A stretch of DNA of 35,897 nt from Saprospiraceae bacterium (GTDB lineage Bacteria; Bacteroidota; Bacteroidia; Chitinophagales; Saprospiraceae). Both the position numbers and the translations under genes were made by a program. Below are positions 6 to 2,020 of the stretch, piece by piece (positions within the stretch are counted from its first letter, which is position 1; every line of letters starts with the position of its first letter). The DNA is taken from assembly GCA_030728245.1 (NCBI GenBank), contig JANQZX010000030.1, positions 3,282 to 39,178 of the forward strand, in the 5' to 3' direction. A model generated the notes under the pieces. That model ran no database searches. It was not told where the DNA came from and was given only the letters and a program-made list of their open reading frames with translations.

Positions 6-37
6 AATATGTCCAAATTTTTAAAAGTGGACATATT
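6..37. promoter_or_regulatory. Perfect inverted repeat, putative activator site, copy A
   Basis: A 10-base perfect inverted repeat: AATATGTCCA at 6-15 and TGGACATATT at 28-37, separated by 12 AT-rich bases. The same TGTCC-N14-GGACA core recurs at 570-593. In both places it lies 45 bases upstream of a TATTTTTG promoter element. Its centre would sit near -66 relative to the predicted start, a usual place for an activator rather than a repressor. The binding protein is unknown. This is inference from symmetry and conserved spacing. Confidence 0.5.
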
Positions 38-73
38 ATGCATAAAAAATGGCTTAATGCTTGAACAGTTGTT

Positions 74-81
74 TATTTTTG
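74..81 (+). promoter_or_regulatory. Candidate -7 element TATTTTTG of small RNA unit A
   Basis: TATTTTTG matches the Bacteroidota -7 consensus TAnnTTTG exactly and is preceded by TTG two bases upstream, as in copy B (TTGnnTATTTTTG). No TTG is found at the usual -33 distance, which fits an activator-dependent promoter using the inverted repeat at 6-37. The predicted start is near base 88. Confidence 0.5.
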
Positions 82-87
82 GTTTAT

Positions 88-180
88 CAAATTTTAAGAT
101 AGATTAATAATAATTCTAAGATATTTAACTGGGAGTAATTTTAAAGGAGGGAGACATTTTGTCTTACCTCCTTTTTTGTT
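88..180 (+). ncRNA. Candidate small RNA A (duplicated unit)
   Basis: The predicted transcript is about 93 nt, running from the TATTTTTG promoter to the terminator at 143-180. Its 3' two-thirds (118-182) repeat at 671-735 with one substitution and one single-base indel, while its 5' end differs between copies. The shared single-stranded block is 118-142 (core AACTGGGAGTAATTTT), just 5' of the hairpin; this is where a pairing seed could be. No open reading frame of note lies inside. I do not recognise the family. It could alternatively be a repeated element carrying only a terminator. The start position is inferred and the 3' end is better supported. Confidence 0.45.
143..180 (+). terminator. 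Rho-independent terminator of small RNA A
   Basis: A hairpin pairs AAAGGAGG at 143-150 with CCTCCTTT at 167-174, with an inner AGAC/GTCT stem and a TTTT loop, followed by TTTTTTGTTTT. The T tract lies on the + strand only, so it terminates rightward transcription. Confidence 0.75.
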
Positions 181-184
181 TTCT

Positions 185-569
185 TAATATTATTAATGCT
201 AGTTTATGGAATGCTAAAAACTTGATAATCAGCTAAATAAAATTATAAGAAAGTTATATTTTGAGCTTAACTTGTTAATTTTGGGTGAGTTAAATGCAAA
301 AATTTCCCAATCAGTCAAAAATGCAACAGAGCAAGGTTATTAAAAATATCTCTGAAGCGGGTGAATATTGATTTGAGTCAAATAACTCAACAAGGTTATT
401 ATTTTCTTGAAATTAATGCAAGTTGGGAAGTATATCAGTTTAAACGGATAGAAAATAAGATAAACACAGGAATAAAATTGGTATGATAATTTGATCCGAA
501 AATGTATTTAGTTATTAATTCTAGTTTGGCTGCTTTGATTCCTTGTTCAATTATTTACAGAATTTTATT
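185..569. other. Non-coding AT-rich spacer between the two repeated units
   Basis: I see no convincing gene on either strand in these 385 bases: all frames are broken by frequent stops and no domain is recognisable. One short direct repeat is present, CAAGGTTATTA at 332-342 and 391-401. The stretch could be the remnant of decayed sequence between two duplicated small RNA units, but nothing identifies it as a known insertion sequence. Confidence 0.5.
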
Positions 570-593
570 TGTCCTGATATTAAAAAGTGGACA
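570..593. promoter_or_regulatory. Inverted repeat, putative activator site, copy B
   Basis: TGTCC at 570-574 and GGACA at 589-593 are spaced exactly as in the copy at 10-33. The right half (AAAAGTGGACATATT) is nearly identical between copies, while the left half keeps only the TGTCC core. The distance to TATTTTTG (45 bases) is the same as in copy A. The conserved geometry amid diverged flanks argues for a protein-binding site. Confidence 0.45.
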
Positions 594-633
594 TATTGTT
601 TCTTTAGAATCAATATTACTGCCTAAAATTGAC

Positions 634-641
634 TATTTTTG
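634..641 (+). promoter_or_regulatory. Candidate -7 element TATTTTTG of small RNA unit B
   Basis: An exact TAnnTTTG match with TTG two bases upstream, as in unit A. No -33 TTG is seen at the usual distance. The predicted start is near 648. Confidence 0.5.
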
Positions 642-647
642 ACTCAT

Positions 648-735
648 TAAGCAAGAAAAAATTTAATTTAAAGATATTTAACTGGGAGTAATTTTTAAGG
701 AGGGAGACATTTGTCTTACCTCCTTTTTTGTTTCT
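648..735 (+). ncRNA. Candidate small RNA B (duplicated unit)
   Basis: The predicted transcript is about 88 nt, from the promoter at 634-641 to the T tract ending near 732-735. Positions 671-735 nearly equal 118-182, whereas the upstream 5' segment is unlike copy A. The 3' end overlaps the last codons of the convergent haloperoxidase-type gene (stop codon at 716-718), so the two transcripts share about 20 antisense bases. Family unknown. As with copy A, the start is inferred from the promoter match. Confidence 0.45.
697..732 (+). terminator. Rho-independent terminator of small RNA B
   Basis: AAGGAGG at 697-703 pairs with CCTCCTT at 719-725, with an inner AGAC/GTCT stem, followed by TTTTTTG. 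The T tract is on the + strand. The hairpin overlaps the 3' end of the minus-strand gene ending at 716, and no comparable T tract exists for that strand. Confidence 0.75.
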
Positions 736-2020
736 CCAATAAGTGTAGATGAGATTTCAATCGATTGGTTACAAATTGACCCACTTGTTTACCTTGCCAT
801 ATTCCCTGTTCTATGGCATCACGAAAATGAATACCTCCATATAGTCTTGACATGGACGCCTCCAAGGCGGCTTCAGAGAAAGAGCCGAAGGAGCGCACAG
901 GTAGTCCGAATTCGACTTCTACATCGTCATCAAAAGGAAATGAATCTCCAAAAATTTTAATTAAAACAATGGAGGCCGCAGATGAAGCCACACTGTGACC
1001 TGACAGGTATTCGGGAAATGGAGGTGTCTGTAGAATAGGTTTCCACGATTTATCTATGAATTCGCGAATGGTTGTCTCTGGCCGAACCCGATGACTCCTG
1101 TATTTTTCATCCCAACAAGCAATAAACGCATCATGTAAGGTCATGGCAACTAAGTTATGAATTAAGGCGGTTTCTTCAATAGATCGCTTTTCTTTTTTAC
1201 AGGCAATACCCGTTATGCCGATCCAATGTCCACCCGGGGATATTTTTTTAGTACCAAATTCAACATGACCAATCTGGGAAATATGATAGGGGTTACAGTC
1301 CCAGAAATTAGCTATGGCCTCTTTTTCTTTATCTTTGGAACGCACAATGTCATACACTTCCTTTAAAAGGAGATAAAAAGGCGCATTTTTATCCATATTA
1401 AAGGGAATAGGGGGTAGAGGTACAAATTGATTGGCCGAATCAAGTACTAAAGGCGAAATGCTATTCCAGTGTGGCTCAACCGGAGGCATGAACGCTGGTC
1501 CGGTAGGTTGCCAAAATCCTGAACCTCGCTTTGGGGTGTACCGTTTTAGATTGTTTAATTGAAGGAATCCATCTTTCATGGCCATTGAAACGACCTCGCC
1601 AACAATCTGGTCAATAACTTGTAAGATGGGCTTAGGCAGGGATTTTGATAAAGAATCAATTTCTGGTAAAAGAGTTCCCCCTGATGGCAGCAGCGCAGCA
1701 GCCGTTTTCCACATACCTAAAATAATCCCGTTTATTACCTCTTTTTCTTTGGTTAGGCCTCTAGGAAATGATGTTTTGGATTTACTTATTTTGCCGATAG
1801 TATGAAAATGGTCAGGACGCAAGGCAACAACTACCTCATAAGAGGAAAGGGTCGTATAGGCGTAATAACGTGACGCAGCAACAGGGGAAGTCACATCATT
1901 TACCATAATATCGGTAACTTTTTTTAGGGCGGAAACATATATATCTGCCTTATCTGGATTATTTGCGCTTGAATATGACAGGCAGCTAAGAAAAAGGAAA
2001 GGTAAATAAAGCCACTTCAT
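716..2020 (-). CDS. Vanadium-dependent haloperoxidase-type PAP2 family protein, secreted
   Basis: This 434-residue protein belongs to the PAP2/vanadium haloperoxidase superfamily. Family members use the same pocket either to bind vanadate (halide oxidation by peroxide) or as acid phosphatases. All vanadate/phosphate-binding residues are visible in the right order: Lys306 and Arg313-Pro314 (K-x6-RP), Ser340-Gly341-His342, then Arg392 and His398 (R-x5-H). The spacings match those known for vanadium chloroperoxidase. A hydrophobic N-terminus (residues 1-19) looks like a Sec signal peptide, with cleavage probably after SSA, so the enzyme should be exported. It starts 8 bases after the VCBS gene, as its operon partner. 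Its last codons are encoded inside the duplicated terminator block at 697-735. Whether it is a haloperoxidase or a phosphatase cannot be told from sequence alone. Confidence 0.88.
   Translation of the reverse strand: MKWLYLPFLFLSCLSYSSANNPDKADIYVSALKKVTDIMVNDVTSPVAASRYYAYTTLSSYEVVVALRPDHFHTIGKISKSKTSFPRGLTKEKEVINGIILGMWKTAAALLPSGGTLLPEIDSLSKSLPKPILQVIDQIVGEVVSMAMKDGFLQLNNLKRYTPKRGSGFWQPTGPAFMPPVEPHWNSISPLVLDSANQFVPLPPIPFNMDKNAPFYLLLKEVYDIVRSKDKEKEAIANFWDCNPYHISQIGHVEFGTKKISPGGHWIGITGIACKKEKRSIEETALIHNLVAMTLHDAFIACWDEKYRSHRVRPETTIREFIDKSWKPILQTPPFPEYLSGHSVASSAASIVLIKIFGDSFPFDDDVEVEFGLPVRSFGSFSEAALEASMSRLYGGIHFRDAIEQGIWQGKQVGQFVTNRLKSHLHLLEKQKRR

Follow-up and report, generated by a model that had tools for sequence, protein, structure and literature searches.

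Two predicted members of a previously undescribed small regulatory RNA gene family in a lake bacterium of the Saprospiraceae

Two similar intergenic units at the left end of the window (the whole stretch of 35,897 nt analysed here) raise the question of whether they are small RNA genes, and of what their RNAs would do. A preliminary description had proposed that they share one architecture. The inverted repeat, the Bacteroidota-type -7 box, the near-identical block and the terminator are indeed all present in both units, and each could be placed at exact coordinates:

10..33, plus strand: putative operator 1, TGTCC-N14-GGACA, 40 bp 5' of the -7 box, kept in five species
74..81, plus strand: -7 box TATTTTTG (TAnnTTTG) of unit 1, with a weak -33 element
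89..181, plus strand: predicted sRNA 1 (class A1), about 93 nt, its ends predicted from the promoter box and the terminator
128..139, plus strand: seed ACTGGGAGTAAT of sRNA 1, common to all five locus classes
146..177, plus strand: Rho-independent terminator of sRNA 1, arms 146-156/160-171
570..593, plus strand: putative operator 2, TGTCC-N14-GGACA, a perfect repeat
634..641, plus strand: -7 box TATTTTTG of unit 2
649..735, plus strand: predicted sRNA 2 (class A2), about 87 nt, ends predicted
681..692, plus strand: seed ACTGGGAGTAAT of sRNA 2
699..729, plus strand: Rho-independent terminator of sRNA 2, arms 699-709/712-723, overlapping the last PAP2 codons
L011:1915-3063, minus strand, just outside the window: membrane AraC/HTH_18 regulator gene, with an HTH_18 domain

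In both units 40 bases separate the inverted repeat from TATTTTTG, where 45 had first been given. TAnnTTTG is the -7 element of Bacteroidota promoters, and the weak -33 side fits an activator-dependent promoter with activation from the operator. The only perfect copies of TGTCC-N14-GGACA in the window are those at 10-33 and 570-593; with up to one mismatch there are three matches against 0.60 expected, a number reached by 3 of 100 shuffles. The block folds better than its shuffles (z -2.1 to -2.5). The stop codon of the convergent PAP2 gene (716-2020, minus strand) lies at 716-718, inside the terminator of sRNA 2. In contig C30 an assembly gap directly precedes the window, and an exact 55-bp copy of positions 1-55, followed by 100 N, lies just upstream (L011:3127-3281). 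This copy is probably a scaffolding artefact, since the relatives lack the duplication upstream of unit 1.

Several observations support the proposal that these are duplicated small RNA genes, which is their best reading. A search of the window against Rfam 15, strict and permissive, gave nothing relevant. At gathering score the one match was a tRNA outside the units, and the units themselves had none; the preliminary description, too, could not match them to a known RNA family. The predicted RNAs contain no obvious ORF. Nine class A units from four species have repeat, seed and terminator in combination, and a fifth species has one more unit, truncated at a contig end; because the three are conserved together across species, the units are not a product of chance. 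A terminator block without promoter and repeat, which would speak against the proposal, was sought across the genus and none was found for class A. The third class A unit of one species, at a contig end (L027, G003:C55), has the repeat variant TGTCT-N14-GGACA. Pairing in the terminator stems of class A, and also of class C, is kept through two-sided compensatory changes.

When the 68-nt block was used as query, three relatives showed a pair of copies spaced by about 230 nt, and there were weaker matches that share only its first part. This common part is ACTGGGAGTAAT, and the terminator behind it differs from case to case. Of the 65-nt block in the preliminary description, the conserved core amounts to only 12 nt. 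Five locus classes, A-E, contain ACTGGGAGTAAT ahead of unrelated terminators, with six copies in this genome and 3-7 per species in seven species of the genus. The 16-mer around the seed, with at most one mismatch, has 2-7 matches per genome in 7/7 species (reversed control, 0-2). Alignment of 32 members sorted into these classes gave exactly 12 invariant columns between diverged flanks and before five unrelated terminators, an invariance that is partly built in because the members were selected by exact seed. A one-mismatch search, however, found core mismatches only at sites without a terminator, and a profile made from the alignment added just two members, with seed regions changed to ACTAGGAGTAAT and ATTTTGGGAGTAAT. 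At E < 1e-4 this profile gives 3-7 strong members in each genome of the genus, 34 in total; its match to sRNA 1 has an E value of 3.1e-14, sRNA 1 being a member by construction. No base pair is common to all classes in an RNAalifold consensus, as expected from unrelated class terminators. Several intergenic promoter-terminator units with one invariant seed are, at the level of sequence, what a family of sibling sRNAs would look like, and the two units are predicted to belong to such a family, previously undescribed.

The family appears confined to the genus. The profile gave nothing convincing in 142 genomes outside it (best score, 20 bits), and the eight extra-genus loci inspected among exact seed matches in 150 genomes of the family have no terminator and look coding or unrelated. 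Extra-genus sites of the exact seed across GTDB likewise all lack a terminator, and viral contigs hold one seed site of unclear context and no copy of the candidate sponge described below. These genomes of the genus are metagenome-assembled; the close GTDB relatives are environmental MAGs, several of them labelled Saprospiraceae or Haliscomenobacteraceae. Absences in G003 and G004 carry little weight, since these genomes are 88-90% complete.

The neighbouring genes suggest different inputs for the classes, with a regulator or sensor gene adjoining three of the five (A, B and C). Class A lies between a divergent regulator gene and the convergent PAP2 gene. The regulator has 382 aa, a hydrophobic N-terminal part and a C-terminal HTH_18/AraC domain (HTH_18 E 2.6e-16), and among 120 genomes of the family it was found in this genus alone. 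Given its proximity, it probably binds operator 1. Class B follows a gene for an apparent membrane sensor with a probable C-terminal HTH; its product has no Pfam match, so this identity is read from the sequence. Class C follows a propeller histidine kinase, for which HATPase_c was matched while HisKA and Reg_prop fell just under the cut-offs. Class D is flanked by an ABC-F-like and a TIM-barrel gene, and class E precedes a VWA gene; no obvious regulator adjoins either class. Classes A and C each have a conserved upstream operator of their own. The class-specific repeats are TGTCC-N14-GGACA in A, a TCACC direct repeat in C, and a TTGATA..TATCAA palindrome at three of the seven loci of D; all of these end about 84-97 nt before the seed. 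On the 3' side of class E, before the VWA gene (L066 ~2700-2760, G000:C11), there is a palindrome TTGACAAGGTTGTCAA with a TACATTTG box, conserved across species, which is likely the operator-promoter of the VWA gene.

A genus search with the anti-seed ATTACTCCCAG returned the sRNAs themselves and other sites. In this genome (G000) the sole exact 11-mer complement outside the sRNAs is C116:6230, which begins a promoter-to-terminator unit conserved in 6/7 species. Its promoter has a palindrome of the type CTGCATnATnATGTAG and a TAGATTTG or TAAATTTG box (TAnnTTTG) 6-7 nt 5' of the anti-seed. The 11-nt anti-seed AATTACTCCCAGACACTTTT, with one change in G004 and two in G006, lies at the predicted 5' end and complements the common seed of classes A-E. 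A second site, AATTACTCC, is often present and is degenerate in G002 and G004. The terminator is strong (z -5.8) in five of the six species and deleted in G006. Downstream of the unit is a DUF2461 gene with its own promoter-like box. The predicted duplex with A1 has an energy of -31.0 kcal/mol, equalled by 4 of 500 mononucleotide shuffles; that with C1 is not unusual (53/500). An independent unit complementary to the seed is thus conserved alongside the sRNAs, as expected of an RNA sponge at this level of evidence, and the unit is probably a sponge that counters the family. A narrow literature search found no report of a sponge in Bacteroidota.

Two further kinds of anti-seed site were seen. 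In G003, G004 and G006 (L055, L061, L146 ~1565), a cupredoxin/CARDB gene has ATTACTCCCAG in its 3'UTR, directly behind the stop codon and ahead of a terminator; this is a possible second, 3'UTR-derived sponge, and a weaker lead. Intergenic copies of TTACTCCCAGTTATTTT in G001, G006 and G005 (L226, L233, L239) have no clear promoter or terminator, and the G005 copy is near a transposase-like gene.

Among mRNAs the best candidate is that of the MADGNSLLNGDVL... gene, whose conserved 5'UTR has the anti-seed about 30 nt 5' of the start codon, between a TATATTTG box and that codon. The site CTCCCAGT is invariant in six species and forms a perfect complement of up to 11-12 nt. The gene itself (MADGNSLLNGDVLIITF...) has no Pfam match. 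The leader is a suggestive target, as one such site may arise by chance and the duplex energies are not unusual: mononucleotide shuffles were as good as the two leader duplexes in 60/500 and 168/500 cases. Genome-wide, anti-seed sites before start codons show no excess (157 against 143 in the reversed control), so a broad regulon is not supported, and target scans with ACTCCCAG..ATG and TTACTCCCAG placed nearly all sites in coding sequence, with no enrichment. Predicted accessibility of the seed, computed on RNAs given a constant 70 nt of upstream sequence in place of mapped starts, is only moderate, GGGAG being often partly paired.

If the 12-nt element is not a pairing seed, it could be the site of an RNA-binding protein, for example one of the RbpB-type RRM kind, which the RNAs would titrate or carry. 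CsrA is the classical protein for GGA-decoy RNAs, and RsmX/Y/Z and CsrB-type systems resemble the loci described here in that multiple sRNA genes with GGA lie downstream of a palindromic activator site. The genus differs in lacking CsrA (PF02599 is absent from 7/7 genomes, with three control genomes positive), so the units are not decoys of the Rsm type. A short, G-rich motif that is invariant across otherwise unrelated RNAs would suit a protein site, and a Bacteroidota RRM protein does bind multicopy sRNAs (PMC11697453). Such a site nevertheless leaves two conserved features unexplained, a separate RNA unit whose predicted 5' end is an 11-nt complement and a complementary 5'UTR. The absence of CsrA and the conservation of complementary RNA units argue for base pairing over titration, and a protein site is an unlikely explanation.

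The elements might also act in cis, as terminators or attenuators of neighbouring genes with a common pre-terminator motif. The position of class C between histidine kinase and FtsX-like genes, that of class E 5' of the VWA gene, and the overlap of the unit 2 terminator with the end of the PAP2 gene would all agree with this. Most members, however, have a -7-like box, mostly 35-53 nt 5' of the seed, and operator-like repeats are conserved upstream of classes A and C; class A stands between divergent and convergent genes with nothing there to attenuate, and an identical 12-nt stretch would be needless before five unrelated terminators. A cis role is accordingly quite improbable. Several copies per genome, the tandem arrangement of A1 and A2 and the third class A copy in one species could point to a dispersed or mobile repeat copied by chance beside terminators. 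Within each class, though, the species keep terminator and flanks in common, the terminators show compensatory changes, and between classes the shared sequence stops at about 12-16 nt. The conserved class-specific flanks largely refute the repeat, which has very little chance of being the explanation. Base pairing in trans, checked by a sponge, fits the loci better than protein titration or attenuation in cis.

With a probability of about 0.72, then, A1 and A2 are trans-acting, base-pairing sRNAs of a sibling family that would funnel several signals into one seed and be kept in check by a sponge. The members carry the 12-nt seed ACUGGGAGUAAU directly 5' of their own terminators, and class-specific signals would switch on class-specific sRNAs through their own upstream regions. 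The classes share the seed and differ in upstream regions and in sensor or regulator neighbours, which suggests that the signals differ and the targets are the same. We infer that the units are transcribed and that the neighbouring regulators activate them. The seed may then form duplexes with mRNA leaders, the MADGNSLLNGDVL... 5'UTR being the best candidate, and the likeliest effect of pairing there would be reduced translation or stability. The candidate sponge, with a promoter of its own and one or two anti-seed sites at the 5' end, would soak up the family. There is perhaps an even chance that these parts form a genus-specific RNA hub, in which the AraC regulator, the propeller sensor with its HTH and the propeller histidine kinase each drive an sRNA with the common seed and the separately controlled sponge sets a threshold. 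If so, the transcriptional signalling of several unrelated systems would converge at the RNA level.

Similar designs have been described in other bacteria. In Vibrio cholerae the sibling sRNAs Qrr1-4 are countered by the QrrX sponge (PMC9732341). The likeness, which is one of architecture, lies in sRNA genes of one family set against one sponge with its own transcriptional regulator. That system is Hfq-associated and gammaproteobacterial, whereas the siblings here have only 12 nt in common, their operators, 5' ends and terminators being different. In Caulobacter crescentus the four sibling sRNAs SisA-D are inactivated by one sponge sRNA, CrfA (PMC12559287), again a family facing one sponge and again comparable in architecture; it is alphaproteobacterial and Hfq-associated, while the candidate sponge here has up to two anti-seed sites. 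Closer in lineage are the multicopy sRNAs FopS/GibS of Bacteroides, studied with RbpB, for which common induction by bile salts rather than one regulator per gene is described (PMC11697453). They too are Bacteroidota multicopy sRNAs with Bacteroidota-type promoters and an unstructured part, containing the common seed, before the terminator. In FopS the seed lies at the 5' end, with the sequence GTGTTTTTCATAGTATTAGATTTAAGG..., in contrast to ACTGGGAGTAAT. The units do not share the R1 seed expected of FopS/GibS near the 5' end, as comparison with the published FopS consensus shows (PMC11697453), and the families in the Rfam 15 copy searched gave no match.

The proposed network would be compact and genus-wide, built on one defined seed and five classes of source loci, together with a sponge and a candidate target. 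To our knowledge, post-transcriptional regulation in Bacteroidota is understood almost only from Bacteroides, and we know of no earlier circuit of this kind outside the gut lineage. Exact sequences are now available for testing base-pairing sRNAs and sponges in Bacteroidota. The family also suggests that sRNA families can have a 12-nt seed in common and nothing else.
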